From assembly GCA_001412365.1 (NCBI GenBank), contig LKUE01000006.1, forward strand, positions 1-16,567: a DNA stretch of 16,567 nt, given 5' to 3'. Made by a program: the position numbers and the translations under genes. Position 1 is the stretch's first letter, and every line of letters begins with the position of its first letter. Positions 3,359 through 14,094 of this stretch are shown here, one piece after another. Source of the stretch: Desulfuromonas sp. SDB (GTDB lineage Bacteria; SDB-A). The notes beneath the pieces were generated by a model. It saw nothing but the letters and a program-made list of their open reading frames with translations, ran no database searches and had not been told where the DNA came from.

Positions 3359-6300
3359 GTGACAGGAATTATTCTCCTATTGATTTCGCTATCCCTGCTG
3401 TTCTCCCAAACCAATGATTCACTGACCATTAATACCATTACCCGAAGCATGTATTTCTATGTACGGAGTAATATGTCCCGGATAACCAGGGAAAAGGTGC
3501 TTATTCCGGAAAGAGGGGTGCTGGTGGAGGAGTTGTACTACGACAGCATATTTTTGGGGATTGATTCAGTGATTACCGTGCCTGATTACCAGGAATATAC
3601 CTATACCACCACTCTGAAAAACAAGCTGGCTCAGTACACCACTGCCTTTCTCCAGCAGCAGGCGGCAATAGCTAATCAGGGTTTAATTCCGGACATCGAA
3701 CTTCCCATCCGCCTTCCCACCGCCCTTGCCGGCATAATCGGTCAGGGAGGGAATCTGAGAATAAACGGAAGACAGAGAATTGAATTTGGGGGGAGCCAGT
3801 CCACTGATCTCAATGCAGTGCAGACTGAATACACCCAGAACGATTTTCTACCCGAACTAAAGATGGAGCAGCAGCTCCAGGTAAATCTCCAGGGGACTAT
3901 CGGGCAGAAAATCAGCGTATTCGTTGATCACAACAGCGAAGCCCAGTCCGAGTTGAGAAATCAAATCCGGCTGCAGTACAAGGGCTATGAAGATGAAGTA
4001 ATTCATCTGGTGGAAATGGGGCATACTCAGCTTTCCCTGCCCGGAACCGAGTTAATCGGCATGCCTGCCATTCAGATGGGATTATTCGGAATAAAATCGG
4101 AGATGCAGTTTGCCGGTCTCAATGTAATTGCCATTGCCACTAAAGAAGAGGGAAAATCGGAAAGCAGAACCTTTGTGGGGCAAGCCACCGAGGACTCGGT
4201 GGTGTTATGGGACACTGATTACATCCGCAGGCAGTACTTCTGGCTGGGACAGTACGGATCGGATAGTGGAAATGTAAATTACTACGATACAATTTTAGGA
4301 ATAAAAGTTTGGGTTGACGACAACAACGCCGCCAACAACAACCAGACCGGTGCGCTTTACGGATACCTGCACTTCTACACCCAATCCGATTCCGCGCTGG
4401 GAGACTCGGTGGGTTGGTTTGATTTCAAGGAATTAAATGAATTTTACTCTTTCGACTATAAAAATAACATTCTGGAACTTAACTACCAGCTTACCTCCAG
4501 TTATAAATTGGGAGTGTGTTACATCGTGGGAAGAAGAAATATGGAAAACGGTCCCATAGTGCAGACCGATACCATCGGTACCTGGAAAAGCACTTACAAT
4601 CAGGGAGATACTGTTGAGTTGAAAGTTATCAACCCTCAGGTGGAAAGGACTTATTATCCCACCTGGGACTTGCAGCTGAGAAACCGCTACTCTCTGCAGT
4701 CCTCCGCCATTGTCCCCGGATCATTTTCCATGAAGATATACAAGCACATCACCGGTTCCGGAGAAGACCAGGAAACTCAGGGAGATCAAACTTATATTCA
4801 TCTGCTGGGTCTTGACCAGAATGATGACGGGATTATTGACCAGGGAGAAGGATATATCAATTATGAAAAGGGATATTTGGAATTTCCCAATTTATTTCCG
4901 TTCAGTGATACGGTATTAGATGATCCTGATTCCATAATTTATGACACCACCGCTACCGATGTGGGCAGAAAGTACAAGCTGGTGATGAAGTACAAAGGGA
5001 TCCGCTCTGTATTTTCCCTGGGAGCATTAAATATCTTAGAAGGATCGGAAGTGGTGACCGTAAATGGGGAGAGAATGGTACGTAATGTGGACTACACCAT
5101 TGACTACGACATCGGAGTGGTCACCTTCATCACCGATAAGGTAAATGACCCTAATGCGGTGGTGAACATTGACTTCCAGTACGCCCCCTTCATCAGCTTA
5201 GCGGACAAATCCCTGCTGGGGGTGAGAATGGACTACCAGATTTCCCCTGCCCTCAGTATCGGGGGCACCGCGATGTACCGCAGCATCAGCACCAAGGAAG
5301 ATCATCCCCACCTGGGGGATGAACCGAGAAATATCACCATGGCTACGGTGGATATGAATCTTTCCTTCCGTCCTGAATTCATGACCAAAGCGGTGGACAT
5401 CCTGCCCCTCATTGACGCTTCCGCCCCTTCTCTGCTCACCATCCGGGGAGCATTGGCTACTTCCCGCCCCAACCCCAACACCAAGGGCTTTGTCTATCTA
5501 GATGATATGGAAGGGAATAAAATGACCATCAATCTGGGAGTCAACCGGACTAACTGGCATTTCGGAAGTATTCCTGATTCCCTGAACCGCCCTGAACTGC
5601 CGGATATCAGCGACACTACTTATTTAGGACAGATATACTGGTACAGCCCCAATGACTGGTGGACCAAGGGAGATCTAAATCCCGATCTCCCCAGCACGGA
5701 AAGGGACGATAATATCCAGGTGATGAGTGTGGTCATGGAGCAGCTGGACAGCGGAGCTGCCACCTTTGTCAGTCTTCAGCAGTGTCTTTCCAATACCGGC
5801 ATGGACCTGTCTGAATTCAGGTTTCTGGAAGTTTGGGTGTACGGAGATCAGGGTAATGTGCATATAGATTTAGGTTACAACATTCCTGAAGATATTTATC
5901 GCCGGACTGGTGTAAACAACTCCATCGGTGGCAGAATAGACACTTTAGACACCGAAGATTTAAACCGCAATGGAATTTTGGAAACCGACGAAGACCGGGG
6001 GTTGGATAATGTATGGGGTGAAGATGCGCTTCAGGTAGCTGGTGATGAGTGGAATGACGACTATCCCGGTAATGTTCAGCCTTCCACCTACCGGCAGCTT
6101 AAAGGAACCGAGGGAAATGACCGCCTGGATACCGAAGATCTGAACAACGACGGCATCTTAAATGTAAGTAAAGATTACGTGGAGTATTCATTTTCAGTGG
6201 GGGGCAACGAGTTTCTGGAAATTGACCGGGGCAACGGATGGAGATTGTATAAAATCCCCCTGCACGACAGTTTATCCAGCACCTACATTGGTTCACCGGA

Positions 6301-8917
6301 CTGGGAAAGGGTGAGATATGCCCGTCTGTGGATTGACAGCTTTACCGACCAGACTGACTCCTTATTATTTGGAGAGATATCCTTGACCGGAAACAGATGG
6401 AGAAAGAACAGCATTTACTCCCTGGATTCTGTAGCGGATTCACTTCCCGGAGAGTATTTTGAGGTCACCACCAAAAACAACTACGAAGATCCGGATTACT
6501 ATCCTCCCATTGACCCGGGAAGGGATGACCTGGGCAATGAAAAGAGGGAAGGATCCCTGGTGCTGATTGCCAAAAATCTCAACCACAACCGGGTAGCCAG
6601 CTGCTATTACTACACCAGTGTTTTTGAAAACTACAATTTGTACAAGGAAATGAAGGTATGGGTTCACGGCAACGGGGAAGACGGGTATCTGTTTTTGAGA
6701 ATTGGAGGAGACACCTTAACCTACTACGAATACCGCATGAGAATACCTAATGGCTGGGAACAGGCGGTAATTGACTTTGACCAGTTCATTGATCTCAAGA
6801 AGACCATAGAAGGAGATACCACCGGTTTTTGGAATGAGGGCAATTACTATATTCGGACCTATAATGCGGGAAAACCCTCCCTGACCAAAGTTAACCGGTT
6901 AACCCTGGGATTGGTGGACGATGTTCCCAACACCCAATTTGACAGTATTGAAATATGGGTAGATGAGTTGAGATTATCATCTCCCTACCGGGAAACCGGT
7001 CTTTCCGGAAACATCACTCTCAACGCCACCTTCTCCGACGTGATGACCTTAAATGCAACCTTAAACTACACCGATGCCAATTACCAGAAAATCACTCAGG
7101 AACAGGGTACCGGAACCAACAACATCAACTACACCTTAAACGGAACTTTTCAGGGGGGTAAATTTTTTCCCTACCGGTGGGGGGTAATCATACCGGTTAC
7201 CGCCAGTTATACCAATTCAAGATCTGTGCCCAAATTTTACCCTGGTTCAGACATCCGTCTTGATCCGGAAGAATCCGAAGATCAGTCCACCCGCTCCAAT
7301 ACTACCAGTATATCTGCAAGCTTTTCCAAGGGGACTCCTTCTTTAAACCGTATTCTGGCGTTAACTGTGGACAATATCCGGCTTACCGGAAACTGGACCA
7401 AAACCAATACCATAACTTACAATCGCGCGGATACCACTATAACCAAATCCGCCTCTTTCAGCTGGTCCTATGCCCCGGTTTTACCTACAATTAAACTTTT
7501 AGGTCAGGAAATCGGAACTTTTCCCGCTACTTTATCTGTAAATTCCAGCTATCAGGCAAATGAAATCCGATCCCATCTAATACCCGACACCAGTGAAAAT
7601 TTAATTACCGATTACCGTTCCGAAGTCCTCACCAATACCTATGTGGTGGGTTATAATCTTTTAAAACCGCTGACTATCACCTACACCTTCACCCGCAACC
7701 GGGATTTAACCCTGGAAGATGCGGGTTTGTTGGGGACAGAGATTCTGCGCAATCAAAGAGTATCTGTGCGATACACTCCGGTTCCTGTGCAATTTTTAAG
7801 ACCGACCTTATCTTTTGAAACCAATTACGGTGAAGACAGCCGTCCGGAATTAAAGCAAATCACCGATACCACTGATATTCGGAATGTCAGCAACTCCAAC
7901 ACCATTGCCTTTTCCGCAACCATGAACTTCACCCGACCATTTGAATGGATTGGTCGGATAAGAGATGAAAGCAGGGACACTTCGGCAACTCCAGGTTCTC
8001 CTCAGTGGATTTTAAAGAATTTAGGAGAATTGGGCAGAAAAATCACTCCTATCAGCTTCAGTGTATCCCGGACCAGGATAACCCGTTTTTACCGGTTAAT
8101 ATTCCGCCCGGATTTGTTTTATCAGTTGGGGCTTAAAGAGGGAATTGATCCGGATCAAACCGGAAAGTATTCCTCTGCCAACGATTATAAAAACGTAACC
8201 TATAATGTCAATGGAAGTTCAGGCTTTAACCTCACCTACCTCACCTGCGGACTAAACTACTCCTGGTCCAGAAGTTTAGGGGGTAATATCGGAAATAAAA
8301 CCTACAATATGAGTTTGACCTGGCCCCGGGTTACCTTTTCTCTACAGCAGCTGCACAAATTGTTAAAGCTTCAATCCATTCAAAGCACCACCATCAGTAC
8401 CGGCTATGCCCAGACTTCCACTTATACCGGACCGGAAGGACAAGAGCCCACCCGTATAATTAAAAGTATAGATTTATCTCCGCTGATATCATTTCAGGTT
8501 AGGTGGAACAATGGCTTAAATTCAAATTTCACCATGTCCCGGACCATAACCGATACCGATAATAAAGGGGCAGTAACCACTTTAACCAGACAGGAAAGCA
8601 GCAACTACTCAGCCCTGCTCAGTTATACTTTTTCCGCACCGGGAGGTATTCCCCTTTTTGGAAATACAATTAAATTTAACAGTTTGCTCACCTTATCTGT
8701 CTCTTACCGTCTTAATAATACCCGGGAGTACTATCGAACTTCCGGGGAAAATATTTCCCTCCGTTCTAATTACTCCATCACCCCTTCTGCCTCCTATAAC
8801 TTCTCACAAAACATAACCGGGGGTATGAATGCAAACTACACCCTGAACGAAGACCGGCAAACCGGCAGAAAGATAAGAAACGTAGGTCTATCCGCTTGGG
8901 CTGAATTCAGATTTTAG
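3359..8917 (+). CDS. sprA: SprA-like type IX secretion outer-membrane channel
   Basis: SprA (Sov in Porphyromonas) is the giant beta-barrel translocon of the type IX secretion system. This 1852-residue homologue is shorter than the roughly 2400-residue Bacteroidetes proteins. It has a signal peptide (about 1-16), a SprA N-terminal domain (about 130-270, with IEFGGSQSTDL, IGQKISVFVDHNSEAQ and LVEMGHTQLSLPGTELIG), the family core motif GFVYLDDMEG at 710-719, and a long C-terminal region of alternating beta strands ending in phenylalanine, as outer-membrane barrels do. Three EF-hand-like loops lie at 486-497, 867-878 and 927-938. The GTG start has no clear Shine-Dalgarno site, but the frame upstream to 3263 has no ATG, GTG or TTG. 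No other T9SS component genes are in the window. The cyclase gene begins five bases after the stop. Confidence 0.88.
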   Translation: MTGIILLLISLSLLFSQTNDSLTINTITRSMYFYVRSNMSRITREKVLIPERGVLVEELYYDSIFLGIDSVITVPDYQEYTYTTTLKNKLAQYTTAFLQQQAAIANQGLIPDIELPIRLPTALAGIIGQGGNLRINGRQRIEFGGSQSTDLNAVQTEYTQNDFLPELKMEQQLQVNLQGTIGQKISVFVDHNSEAQSELRNQIRLQYKGYEDEVIHLVEMGHTQLSLPGTELIGMPAIQMGLFGIKSEMQFAGLNVIAIATKEEGKSESRTFVGQATEDSVVLWDTDYIRRQYFWLGQYGSDSGNVNYYDTILGIKVWVDDNNAANNNQTGALYGYLHFYTQSDSALGDSVGWFDFKELNEFYSFDYKNNILELNYQLTSSYKLGVCYIVGRRNMENGPIVQTDTIGTWKSTYNQGDTVELKVINPQVERTYYPTWDLQLRNRYSLQSSAIVPGSFSMKIYKHITGSGEDQETQGDQTYIHLLGLDQNDDGIIDQGEGYINYEKGYLEFPNLFPFSDTVLDDPDSIIYDTTATDVGRKYKLVMKYKGIRSVFSLGALNILEGSEVVTVNGERMVRNVDYTIDYDIGVVTFITDKVNDPNAVVNIDFQYAPFISLADKSLLGVRMDYQISPALSIGGTAMYRSISTKEDHPHLGDEPRNITMATVDMNLSFRPEFMTKAVDILPLIDASAPSLLTIRGALATSRPNPNTKGFVYLDDMEGNKMTINLGVNRTNWHFGSIPDSLNRPELPDISDTTYLGQIYWYSPNDWWTKGDLNPDLPSTERDDNIQVMSVVMEQLDSGAATFVSLQQCLSNTGMDLSEFRFLEVWVYGDQGNVHIDLGYNIPEDIYRRTGVNNSIGGRIDTLDTEDLNRNGILETDEDRGLDNVWGEDALQVAGDEWNDDYPGNVQPSTYRQLKGTEGNDRLDTEDLNNDGILNVSKDYVEYSFSVGGNEFLEIDRGNGWRLYKIPLHDSLSSTYIGSPDWERVRYARLWIDSFTDQTDSLLFGEISLTGNRWRKNSIYSLDSVADSLPGEYFEVTTKNNYEDPDYYPPIDPGRDDLGNEKREGSLVLIAKNLNHNRVASCYYYTSVFENYNLYKEMKVWVHGNGEDGYLFLRIGGDTLTYYEYRMRIPNGWEQAVIDFDQFIDLKKTIEGDTTGFWNEGNYYIRTYNAGKPSLTKVNRLTLGLVDDVPNTQFDSIEIWVDELRLSSPYRETGLSGNITLNATFSDVMTLNATLNYTDANYQKITQEQGTGTNNINYTLNGTFQGGKFFPYRWGVIIPVTASYTNSRSVPKFYPGSDIRLDPEESEDQSTRSNTTSISASFSKGTPSLNRILALTVDNIRLTGNWTKTNTITYNRADTTITKSASFSWSYAPVLPTIKLLGQEIGTFPATLSVNSSYQANEIRSHLIPDTSENLITDYRSEVLTNTYVVGYNLLKPLTITYTFTRNRDLTLEDAGLLGTEILRNQRVSVRYTPVPVQFLRPTLSFETNYGEDSRPELKQITDTTDIRNVSNSNTIAFSATMNFTRPFEWIGRIRDESRDTSATPGSPQWILKNLGELGRKITPISFSVSRTRITRFYRLIFRPDLFYQLGLKEGIDPDQTGKYSSANDYKNVTYNVNGSSGFNLTYLTCGLNYSWSRSLGGNIGNKTYNMSLTWPRVTFSLQQLHKLLKLQSIQSTTISTGYAQTSTYTGPEGQEPTRIIKSIDLSPLISFQVRWNNGLNSNFTMSRTITDTDNKGAVTTLTRQESSNYSALLSYTFSAPGGIPLFGNTIKFNSLLTLSVSYRLNNTREYYRTSGENISLRSNYSITPSASYNFSQNITGGMNANYTLNEDRQTGRKIRNVGLSAWAEFRF

Positions 8918-8922
8918 CCATC

Positions 8923-11900
8923 ATGCTCTGCCCCCTCTGTAAATTTGATAATCCTCCCAACCACAGTTTTTGCGGAAATTGCGGAAGCAGACTTAATATA
9001 GCCAAACCTTCCCGGAGGATTGCCACCTTTTTAATTGTAGACATGGTGAATTTCACCAAATTATCCGAGCAACTTGATCCCGAACAGGTGAAGAAATTAG
9101 TTCAGGAAACTTTCGCCAGTTTAGATGATATAACCCAAAGAGTGGGAGGATACCTTCATCAGATAATTGGAGATTCCGGCTTATTTCTGTTTGGGATACC
9201 CCTAGCCTTGGAAAAACATTCCGAACGGGCGGTAAGTGCTGCTCTGCAGATAAAAAAAATTACTCCAGTTTTAAGTGAACAGCTGGAACAAAATATAAAT
9301 TTCCATATGGCTATTCATTCCGGAGAGGTTTTCTGCGGAGATATTTTGATAAATAAATTTCATTCCTATTTTACCATCGGCGATCCTTTAAATGTAACCA
9401 GCAGAATTGAAAATATTTGCCCCGCTGGTGAAATCTATGTATCCCAGGAGATCTATAAAGCAACTAGTCATTTGTTCAACTATGAGCAGGTAGGTGCTGA
9501 AAAATTCAAAGGGAAAAAAGAACCGGTAAGTATTTACCGGTTAGTTGACCAAAGAACCCGGAGATTAAAACAACGGGGTCTTTCCTGGACAGTCATGCCC
9601 TTTGTGGGAAGGGAAAAGGAATTAAACTTGGCAATTAAATGTTTTAGCAAAAGTAAACAGAAATTACGGGGAATAATTGTCAAAGGGGAACCGGGAATCG
9701 GCAAGACCAGGTTTTTTGAAGAATTGATGTCCCAACTTCAGCCTAACCCAGTTAAATTGAATATCAGATGCATACCTTACGGCATGGATAGCTTTTGGAC
9801 TTTAAGGCAGCTGGTAAACCTGATTTTAAATAAGGTTAAAGCCAGTTTACATTTAACTGATAAGATAAGTGCCCTTCAATCTGTTTTTCAAATGTTTGAT
9901 CATGAGCATTCTGATTATATTGCTTCCCATTTGACTTCTCTTTTACAGCACAACCACCAGCTATCCTATCAACCCCAGCAGCTTAATTTAATTTATCATT
10001 CTATATTTAAATTAATTGAATATTTAAACAGTGAGTGTAAACAAACTGTAGTTTTAGTTATTGAAGACCTGCATTGGGCTCCCCCTCCATTTATTGATTT
10101 TCTGGAGCAAATGACCGGGGAATTGGAAAATTTAGACTTATACCTCATTTTAATTTCCAGGACTTTGCCCCACTATCAGGTTACCGATAATTTTTTAATA
10201 AATTTAGCCACCAGAAAATCATTTTTCAATATACATTTGCAGCCTCTGTCCAGGGGAGAAAGTGAGTCCTTAATAAAATTCATTTTGAATATTGACCGCA
10301 TTCCTGTTTCCTTAAAATCCACTATCATCAAATACAGCGAAGGAAATCCTTTTTATTTAGAGGAATTAATTAAGATTTTATTGGAAAAGGGAATAATCTG
10401 GTATGAGCAGGGGAAATGGATTGGAAAAGAAAAATTTGACTTTACCATACCCAAAACTGTAAATGAAATTATCATGAGCAGGTTTGACCTGCTATCCACT
10501 TCAGAAAAAACCATACTGGAAATTGCTTCGGTTAATGGAACTGAATTTTTCGATCAAATGGTTTTTCAGTTATCCGGAGTTTCGGACCGGGGGATACTGG
10601 ACCGTCTTTGCAAATACGGTTTTATTAACTATATAAGAACATCAACTTCCGGAAGTAATCTTAACCTCTACAGTTTTTCACACATTCTGATAAAGGACAG
10701 CATATATTCATACCAGTTGAAAATTCAGCGAAAGCAAATTCACCGTCAAATTTTACATTGGTTTGAACAAAGTTTTCAACAGCTTAATGAATATTACCCC
10801 TTAATTGCTTATCATGCCGATCAGGCAGAATTATGGAATAGTGCAGTTAATTATTACTATCTGGCAGCGATGGAAGAAGAAAAGAAATATTCATTCCAGG
10901 TAGCTGAAAAATTATTAACCCGGATTTTAGAGATCGTTCCAGCCCATCTTTCCAGACTCAATCAACCACAAGTTTTCAACTATCTTTATCATTTCGGTAA
11001 AATTGCTTCTAATCTGGGAAAAAGTAAATTGGCTTTAGAGAAGTTGTTTAGTGCAGAAAAATACTGCAGAAACAAATATCAGCGTGCTCAATTATTCTAC
11101 CAAATTGCCCAAGTCTATCAAACTATCAGTGACTATTCGAAATCAAAACAGTACATTGATAAAGCTTTAGCTTTTTGCAATTTCAACCAGCCCACCAAGA
11201 AAATGAAAAAATTGATTTTCAATCTTTACCATCTCACTTCCGCCGTGGATTATTTAACCGGAAATACCACCCAGGCGTTTACACATTTACTCCAAGCGGA
11301 AAAATACATGGACAAGAAGAACCAGCAGCAGGTGATGATTCAGAACAGCCAGATGTCCGATTTACTCCACGAGAAAGGAGAAATTCAGCAAGCTCTGCAG
11401 CTGAGATTGGAGATTGAACAACTTGCCCACAAATCAAAAAATTTACTAACTTTAGCTACTAATTACAACAATATCGGAATTATTTACGGGGAATTGGGTG
11501 AAATCGAGAAATCCCTTAACTCCTACAAAAAATCTTATGAATTGGAAAAGAAGACCGGACATAAATTAGGACAGGCAATTTCATCTTTTAACATTGGAGC
11601 ATATTACCTGGACTTCGGAGTGAACCGCCAAGCTAGAATTTGGTTAAACCGTTACCATGAATTAAACCTTAAAATAAACAACCAGCTAGGAGAAGGATAT
11701 TACCAATTAGGTCTGGCTGAAATTGAATACAATCGGGCAAATATAAAAAAATCAATACATCACCGTTTAATTTCTAAAAGTATTTTTGCCGAACTGGATA
11801 GCAGACAAAATCAGTTCTTTGCCTTAATTGACATAATTTGGAGGTTTGGAGAAGCTGGATTAAAAAACCAAGCCCTTCAATATCAAACCGAATTACAGCA

Positions 11901-12282
11901 GTTGTTTGAAAAAATCAAGAAGTCAGTCCCATCCTCCGTACATGCAAATTACGATCTTATCTTAACTTATATGAAAATTCTGGATAAATCCCAAAAAATC
12001 ACCCAAGCTGAATTAAAAAAATTACAAAACAATTTAAATGAAAAATCTTCCCCCTATGAAAATATTGATGATCTTTTCATGCTGTACCGAATATTTCAGG
12101 CAAAAGAAAATAGCTACAGCGAAAAATGTTTGATAAGAAGCTGCAATTTTTTAATTAATTCACATCAAGCCATTCCCAAGCCAAACTGGAAAAAAAGCTT
12201 TCTAAATAAATACATCTGTCAAAAAGTTATACAGGAATATGAAAATGTGTTCAATTCTTCTCCTGTTGACCTGAACAACTGA
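8923..12282 (+). CDS. Zinc-ribbon / class III nucleotidyl cyclase / AAA ATPase / TPR signalling protein
   Basis: This 1119-residue cytoplasmic protein has four parts. A zinc ribbon comes first (C3, C6, C17, C20). A class III adenylate/guanylate cyclase domain spans about 33-210, with metal-binding D40 and D84 and the transition-state residues N157 and R161. A P-loop ATPase follows, with Walker A GEPGIGKTR (255-263) and Walker B VVLVIEDLHWA (376-386). A long helical region contains TPR-like repeats, clearest at about 840-960. This cyclase-AAA-TPR layout is known from soluble-adenylyl-cyclase-like regulators that make cyclic nucleotides. The lysine that normally reads adenine (four residues before D84) is Q80, and the second base-contact position is probably F150, so activity or substrate may differ. 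No DNA-binding domain is apparent. ATG lies five bases after the SprA stop without a clear Shine-Dalgarno site, suggesting coupled translation. Confidence 0.9.
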   Translation: MLCPLCKFDNPPNHSFCGNCGSRLNIAKPSRRIATFLIVDMVNFTKLSEQLDPEQVKKLVQETFASLDDITQRVGGYLHQIIGDSGLFLFGIPLALEKHSERAVSAALQIKKITPVLSEQLEQNINFHMAIHSGEVFCGDILINKFHSYFTIGDPLNVTSRIENICPAGEIYVSQEIYKATSHLFNYEQVGAEKFKGKKEPVSIYRLVDQRTRRLKQRGLSWTVMPFVGREKELNLAIKCFSKSKQKLRGIIVKGEPGIGKTRFFEELMSQLQPNPVKLNIRCIPYGMDSFWTLRQLVNLILNKVKASLHLTDKISALQSVFQMFDHEHSDYIASHLTSLLQHNHQLSYQPQQLNLIYHSIFKLIEYLNSECKQTVVLVIEDLHWAPPPFIDFLEQMTGELENLDLYLILISRTLPHYQVTDNFLINLATRKSFFNIHLQPLSRGESESLIKFILNIDRIPVSLKSTIIKYSEGNPFYLEELIKILLEKGIIWYEQGKWIGKEKFDFTIPKTVNEIIMSRFDLLSTSEKTILEIASVNGTEFFDQMVFQLSGVSDRGILDRLCKYGFINYIRTSTSGSNLNLYSFSHILIKDSIYSYQLKIQRKQIHRQILHWFEQSFQQLNEYYPLIAYHADQAELWNSAVNYYYLAAMEEEKKYSFQVAEKLLTRILEIVPAHLSRLNQPQVFNYLYHFGKIASNLGKSKLALEKLFSAEKYCRNKYQRAQLFYQIAQVYQTISDYSKSKQYIDKALAFCNFNQPTKKMKKLIFNLYHLTSAVDYLTGNTTQAFTHLLQAEKYMDKKNQQQVMIQNSQMSDLLHEKGEIQQALQLRLEIEQLAHKSKNLLTLATNYNNIGIIYGELGEIEKSLNSYKKSYELEKKTGHKLGQAISSFNIGAYYLDFGVNRQARIWLNRYHELNLKINNQLGEGYYQLGLAEIEYNRANIKKSIHHRLISKSIFAELDSRQNQFFALIDIIWRFGEAGLKNQALQYQTELQQLFEKIKKSVPSSVHANYDLILTYMKILDKSQKITQAELKKLQNNLNEKSSPYENIDDLFMLYRIFQAKENSYSEKCLIRSCNFLINSHQAIPKPNWKKSFLNKYICQKVIQEYENVFNSSPVDLNN

Positions 12283-12402: not shown

Positions 12403-12410
12403 AAGGAGGT
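12403..12410 (+). promoter_or_regulatory. Strong Shine-Dalgarno site marking the true start of the T9SS cargo gene
   Basis: AAGGAGGT is a full-strength ribosome-binding site. It precedes ATG codons at 12414 and 12417; the second has the better spacing (seven bases from AGGAGG). It shows that translation is meant to begin here, at the signal peptide, rather than at the downstream TTG at 12651. Confidence 0.85.
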
Positions 12411-12413
12411 ACA

Positions 12414-14051
12414 ATGATGAAGATGATGATGGTGTTTTTGATGATCACCACTGGGGCACTAATCCTGAATGCTTCGGTAGCACAAGATTAATTTCTACCC
12501 GCCAATATAATTGAACAGCATCAAGGCTTTGATACAGGCGAAATTCCCTCAGTAGTTAATTATTCACCGCCTCAAGCAGCTCCTGATCACGACATCTGCT
12601 TAACCGTCCAAACCCCCCCTGAAATCTACACCCCCCTGTGGTATAACGACTTGTTGGTCACCGATCAATGTCCTTGTATCCAGTCTGTCAACAAATTAGC
12701 TACTGATTATGACCAGGATGGCTTTGTCTATGTGGCTTTGTTAGCAAATCACACCGGTAATGATACCTTGTGGGTATTTCAATCCACTGACGGGGGACAT
12801 ACCTGGATCAAGGATTGGGAAACCTGGATTTACGGTAGTGATTTAGATATAATCAGCTACGATATGCGGATACAGAAAGAAACTGCCAATCCCTTTATTT
12901 ACCTGGCAGTTGTCTACGTTCATGCCAATGACACCACCTGCACCTTTAGAAGGGTAAACTTAGATCAGTCGGTAAGTGAATGGCATTACTTCACTGATCA
13001 TGCCGACATAAAGCATGTGGAACTAGATATAACCGATGAAGCAAATCCTCATATTTATTTGGTTTACTCTTATCCTTCTTCCTCATTTTATTACTTGAGT
13101 AGGCAATCCTCTGCGGACGGAGGAGCAAATTGGACATCAGGAACGGTAACTTCTGGTCAAAAAGAAGCTACTGGTTTTGACCTCTGTGCGGGACCGGATG
13201 ATCAAGCTTATCTGTTTTGGCATGATGGTACTGATGATGACCTTTCCGTAGCCAGGTATATTAATTATTTCACTTCGGTAGGAGGATTTCAGTATCTTAA
13301 CAATGTTTCAGATTTGTATTACGATGTGTACATAGCCTCTGCCCGTCATAATTCCTATCCCACCAACTACGTAGTGGCAGTTTACCAGGATGGCTTGAAC
13401 AACAGCACTAGCACCCGATCCTGGGAAATTGTATCTTCAGACGGAGGTCAGAATTTCTCTGCTCCCTCTCATTTCCTGGTGGGAGACAATCATGCCATTC
13501 ACCCCTTTGTTGCCTGTACCCGTTGCGGAACATCCGACCAGTTCGTGGGTTATGTTACTCAAAGATGGTCAGGGGAAGATTCAGTAATGGCCGGTTATAA
13601 ATCATCCCAGTCTGCCGGGTGGAGTAATTTAGGTTACAAAAATGATCACCGGGCTACCGGAGAAACTTCACCCCAGGGAAATTATATCTTAACCGGCTTA
13701 GGTGGAGGAATGTACTTAATTTACCGGGAATTCGGTTCAAACAACATCTGGTATGACCGGGCAAGTTATACCTCGGCGGTGGAAGAAATAACATCACCGG
13801 TAGTTAATGTTCATACCGGATTTAACCAGATGATGTTCACCTTGAATTTCCCCTCAGAAACCACCGGAAAATTGATGATTTTTGACTTGACTGGAAGAAA
13901 TGTTAACACAATTTATCAGGGTAAATTCAATGAAGGTGAAAATTCGTTCCGTTGGGATTATCTAAATGACGATATTTCATCAGGCACTTATATCATGCTG
14001 CTGACTACCCCTGAGCATTCCTATTCTCATAAATTCAGCATATTGAACTAA
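12414..14051 (+). CDS. Exported Asp-box protein with T9SS type A sorting domain, interrupted by in-frame TAA (possible pseudogene)
   Basis: Read through, the frame has 546 codons. Residues 1-23 are a signal peptide (MMKMMMVFLM...NASVA) with a likely cut before QD; codon 26 is TAA, and the same frame then stays open for 519 codons. The body has three Asp-box motifs typical of sialidase/BNR-type beta-propellers: STDGGHTW (124-131), SADGGANW (233-240) and SSDGGQNF (341-348). The last ~85 residues (about 460-545) form a T9SS type A sorting domain, with KLMIFDLTGRNV, SSGTYIML and a KFSIL end. The product would cross the inner membrane by Sec and the outer membrane by the SprA route; its extracellular role is unknown, and no sialidase catalytic set was identified. 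An internal TTG at 12651 would give an export-blind protein. The break may be a recent mutation, an assembly error or recoding. Confidence 0.82.
12489..12491 (+). other. In-frame TAA directly after the signal peptide
   Basis: This codon follows ...SVAQD and precedes FLPANIIEQ in the same frame. TAA also ends the genes at 2356-2358, 3255-3257, 14049-14051 and 14096-14098 (minus), so it is an ordinary stop in this genome. A single base change (for example from GAA, CAA or AAA) would explain it. Confidence 0.9.
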
Positions 14052-14056
14052 ACTTG

Positions 14057-14094
14057 AAGAGGAGGGATCAAACCCTCCTCTTTTCTTTTTTTTT
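14057..14094 (+). terminator. Strong intrinsic terminator after the T9SS cargo gene
   Basis: AAGAGGAGGG (14057-14066) pairs perfectly with CCCTCCTCTT (14073-14082) around the six-base loop ATCAAA, and the stem runs into a 14-base T-rich tract with a single C. It starts six bases after the stop codon. In the opposite direction the hairpin lacks a trailing U tract, so it should not stop the convergent nadE transcript efficiently. Confidence 0.92.

Follow-up and report, generated by a model that had tools for sequence, protein, structure and literature searches.

An interrupted T9SS cargo gene

The window, meaning the whole 16,567-nt stretch of DNA analysed here, belongs to a 3.14-Mb assembly in 433 contigs (G000) and carries a T9SS cargo gene with the following parts:

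12403-12410, + strand: Shine-Dalgarno site AAGGAGGT, read from the sequence
12414-12488, + strand: ATG start (12414) and signal peptide of 25 codons, MMKMMMVFLMITTGALILNASVAQD, in gap-free alignment with that of an open paralogue (L002)
12489-12491, + strand: in-frame TAA, aligned with E, N, Y, Y or C of relatives
12492-13830, + strand: sialidase-like (BNR/Asp-box) propeller region, its boundary with the tail approximate; PF13088 at 24.8 bits, below cut-off, and weak profile matches to solved sialidases
13831-14048, + strand: T9SS type A sorting domain, TIGR04183 at 25.9 bits (cut-off 23)
14049-14051, + strand: normal stop TAA, read from the sequence
14056-14083, + strand: rho-independent terminator, 11-bp stem and T run, read from the sequence

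The initial annotation had described a ribosome-binding site, start and signal peptide running into TAA, followed by an open frame that reaches an intact sorting tail and terminator, and the sequence confirms this throughout. Across the stop the frame reads MMKMMMVFLMITTGALILNASVAQD, then TAA, then FLPANIIEQ..., with 519 sense codons between the TAA at 12489-12491 and that at 14049-14051; the cargo frame thus holds one stop in 546 codons and no frameshift. The signal peptide, which is seen in the sequence and aligns with those of paralogues, is separated by the TAA from the remaining protein. Asp-box motifs (STDGGHTW and SSDGGQNF) lie in the propeller-like body, and the sorting tail exceeds the NCBIfam cut-off given above and falls below that of Pfam (PF18962, 16.0 vs 27 bits). 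The product is predicted to be a sialidase-like propeller protein, secreted or held at the surface through the T9SS. That a stop should fall so near the likely cleavage site (about 3 codons away or less) has a chance of about 7/546; because this coincidence was spotted after the fact, the position of the stop carries little weight.

SprA, the T9SS translocon, is encoded at 3359-8917 of the same window (TIGR04189, 462 bits), and 87 sorting-tail matches were found across G000. Directly 3' of SprA, at 8923-12282, lies the gene for an 1119-aa adenylate/guanylate cyclase - AAA ATPase - TPR protein, which has many relatives in the related genomes G001, G002 and G003. Neighbouring genes end in TAA and TAG as normal stops, which bears out the earlier statement that TAA is an ordinary terminator elsewhere in the window.

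Paralogues and the locus in related genomes

At least seven paralogues of the window gene are present in G000, full-length or nearly so, 30-48% identical to it and all open, including through the TAA column; with the window gene this cargo family numbers at least eight, and related genes also occur in G001, G002 and G003. Comparison of the codon in close relatives, a check proposed in the initial annotation, gave E, N, Y, Y or C in the five relatives of a gap-free alignment of the signal-peptide region, all of them open at the stop, the column being a variable site right after the signal peptide. Chance does not account for the interrupted frame, which is 519 codons long and shares 48% identity with an open paralogue and 82% with an orthologue. 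Scans of genomic and viral contigs with the cargo protein as query returned no close relative. An 11-row alignment of the cargo proteins was too diverse for scanning; a 6-row version, used in its place, reached one contig, from a MAG of candidate division WOR-3 (now phylum Caldifarciminota), which was the sole named match; G000 is assigned here to an uncultured bacterium of this group.

NAD synthase neighbours the G001 orthologue just as it does the window gene, and from residue 133 of the frame after the stop onward the two cargo proteins are 82% identical. Homology of the orthologue stops abruptly near window position 12900, at a fork beyond which the 5' part is absent from the contig, so that this gene is not comparable at the stop position; a search for the missing part elsewhere in G001 gave no close match (best 42%). 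Less than 0.8 kb lies between NAD synthase and the cyclase in G002 and G003, and it holds no match to the cargo gene. Because the G001 orthologue is cut at a repeat and G002 and G003 are without the gene at this place, the cargo locus looks dispensable. The initial annotation had held that additional disabling mutations in relatives would mark a plain pseudogene; the loss of the 5' part from the G001 contig goes part of the way towards this.

The G001 repeat is an 87-bp sequence common to two contig ends (G001:C97:5222-5315 and G001:C82:1-87; L054, L056); it contains a hairpin and an outward-directed RBS-ATG, and abuts two T9SS-tail gene fragments. Since the WOR-3 contig mentioned above bears a k87 label, the 87 bp may be the overlap used by the assembler at one border of a repeated element, perhaps an insertion sequence of which they would form the end.

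Selection and age of the stop

Over 380 codons the window copy and the G001 orthologue differ by a dS of about 1.0 and a dN of 0.096 (dN/dS 0.095), a ratio that indicates purifying selection in the past history of the window gene. At columns on which the outgroups agree, 8 changes are private to the window copy and 6 to the orthologue. No sign of relaxed selection or of decay after the stop was found in the window copy, which has no excess of changes, no second stop and no frameshift; the claim made here is accordingly limited to a nonsense allele, and does not extend to an established pseudogene. About 5% of single-base changes in the gene would create a stop, and the chance of seeing no further one is below 0.2 at 0.02 neutral substitutions per site and below 0.02 at 0.05. 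Neutral drift of the frame beyond about 0.02-0.05 substitutions per site is therefore unlikely on this estimate, dS to G001 being about 1. Since stops would arise at this rate and no second one is present, one of three things holds: the TAA is very young beside the divergence from G001, it is not genuine, or the gene remains in use.

Survey of cargo genes and the TGA-containing members

Internal stops were looked for in G000 in the surroundings of 78 sorting-tail genes, which together amount to about 49,000 codons, and of nine others, several of them cut by contig ends; 71 of the 78 could be checked at the start, and the other seven run off the examined stretch. None of these genes other than the window gene showed a TAA or TAG interruption, a case at a contig edge not being counted, so that such interruptions, genuine or artefactual, are rare in the T9SS-tail genes of this genome. 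The contig-edge case (G000:C316:1-1616; L182) belongs to the family but shows no recognisable signal peptide, and a TAG stands ahead of it, 12 bases in from the start of the contig.

Six genes, on contigs C35, C158, C210, C305, C393 and C424, have one in-frame TGA between signal peptide and sorting tail. They are listed here with the selenocysteine genes of the same genome:

G000:C210:8557-9603 (L205:158-1204), - strand: C210 cargo gene; signal peptide, one TGA, sorting tail
L204:157-2043, - strand: C393 cargo gene; signal peptide, one TGA, sorting tail
L203:2187-3401, + strand: C35 cargo gene; signal peptide, one TGA, sorting tail
L135:2437-3537, + strand: C424 cargo gene; signal peptide, one TGA, sorting tail
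L206:2246-3424, + strand: C158 cargo gene; signal peptide, one TGA, sorting tail
L243:3895-5100, + strand: C305 cargo gene; signal peptide, one TGA, sorting tail
G000:C305:11105-15900 (L243): cluster of selB (333 bits), selA (546 bits) and tRNA-Sec (anticodon UCA)

The C305 cargo gene lies directly beside the selB-selA-tRNA-Sec cluster. A similar neighbourhood, judged by coordinates, is present on G001:C90.

The TGA is kept in G001-G003 for four families (C210, C393, C158/C305 and C424). Relatives of C210 in these genomes are 47-68% identical, most with one TGA, and the aligned position reads U-x-x-C in those with TGA and C-x-x-C in two homologues without it; in the C158, C393 and C424 families the TGA is kept at 35-70% identity. 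Predicted SECIS-like hairpins, whose stems are 6-9 bp long and whose loops are short (GGUC or AGUU, for example), begin about 10-16 bases 3' of the TGA in C35, C210 and C393, where they are clearest, and in most relatives of C210 and C393; they are absent from the Cys homologues of C210. A comparable hairpin is predicted in C424; the one predicted for the C158/C305 family is farther downstream and less convincing. For C35 no relative was found in G001-G003, and it is a candidate on its hairpin and neighbouring Cys only.

Because of the conserved TGA, the SECIS-like hairpins, the Cys homologues in one family and the selB-selA-tRNA-Sec cluster, the six are candidates for secreted selenoproteins, belonging to several unrelated kinds, in which TGA is probably read as selenocysteine. 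The initial annotation had thought a genome-wide change of code unlikely, which holds for TAA and has to be qualified for TGA, apparently recoded in these cargo genes. Within limited literature coverage, a search found no description of T9SS or WOR-3 selenoproteins, and the available part of a 2026 inventory of 119 prokaryotic selenoprotein families makes no mention of T9SS, FG-GAP, sorting, secretion or signal peptide (PMC13188914). Automatic annotation would class the TGA genes as broken, the same as the TAA gene, when they look like T9SS-exported selenoproteins; if so, several protein families of an uncultured phylum would carry selenocysteine on the cell surface or extracellularly. This by-product is more interesting than the TAA finding, which is real in the sequence, ordinary in kind and by itself of little consequence, one paralogous copy having probably been switched off by a recent stop.

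Nature of the TAA

The most probable account is a single, very recent nonsense substitution that has turned the window gene into a null allele. Translation would begin normally at the ATG at 12414, yield the 25-residue signal peptide and halt at the TAA, and, provided the base is real, no protein would be made from the gene. The open homologues argue for such an allele; as against an error the argument loses force, the same facts fitting one wrong base in the consensus of a fragmented metagenome assembly, with the open gene present in the population. That alternative is rather unlikely but considerably the strongest of the others: the assembly is in 433 contigs, a single base would suffice, the complete coding frame is intact at the dN/dS given above, and the survey of T9SS genes turned up no other TAA/TAG interruption. 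Against it, the site has no homopolymer or repeat, where assembly errors usually fall. An on/off polymorphism, in which open and closed alleles coexist and the paralogous family serves as a pool of surface proteins, would suit the several paralogues and the accessory presence of the locus among related genomes, but is improbable at a site without a simple-sequence repeat and with no near-identical donor, the closest paralogue in the genome being 48% identical. Recent inactivation, polymorphism and consensus error, three of the four options in the initial annotation, thus all fit what was found.

The fourth, recoding of the stop in a secreted protein, is not supported at this codon, and programmed read-through of the TAA is very improbable, even with the frame intact beyond the stop and TGA apparently recoded in other T9SS cargo genes of the genome. 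Selenocysteine is encoded by UGA, and the tRNA-Sec here has anticodon UCA; downstream of the TAA no SECIS-like hairpin was found (-6.8 kcal/mol); no tRNA with a UUA anticodon was found among 40 tRNAs, an incomplete inventory; TAA serves as a normal stop in the window; and the column varies in relatives. Equally improbable is the version in which a genuine, tolerated TAA lets enough translation past for a little of the T9SS cargo to be exported, in a lineage that apparently recodes TGA in several T9SS cargo genes. Internal re-initiation was considered and rejected: the first in-frame ATG, GTG or TTG is the TTG at 12651, which has no Shine-Dalgarno site and lies beyond the signal peptide, and no usable in-frame start with a Shine-Dalgarno site or signal peptide was found after the TAA.

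Comparison with known systems

With T9SS type A cargo of the BNR/Asp-box propeller class the window gene shares a putative signal peptide, a propeller-like body, the TIGR04183 tail and the presence of SprA in the window. It differs in the TAA after the signal peptide and in Pfam scores for propeller and tail below the curated cut-offs, any enzymatic activity being putative. Bacterial selenoproteins (UGA and SECIS) have in common with it an in-frame stop inside an exported protein, and other T9SS cargo genes of G000 fit that class, whereas the window gene has TAA as the codon concerned and lacks both a SECIS-like hairpin and a conserved column of Cys type. Though its TAA is read from an assembly consensus, the window gene resembles recent bacterial nonsense pseudogenes in having one stop with the rest intact, past purifying selection and membership of a dispensable paralogous family.
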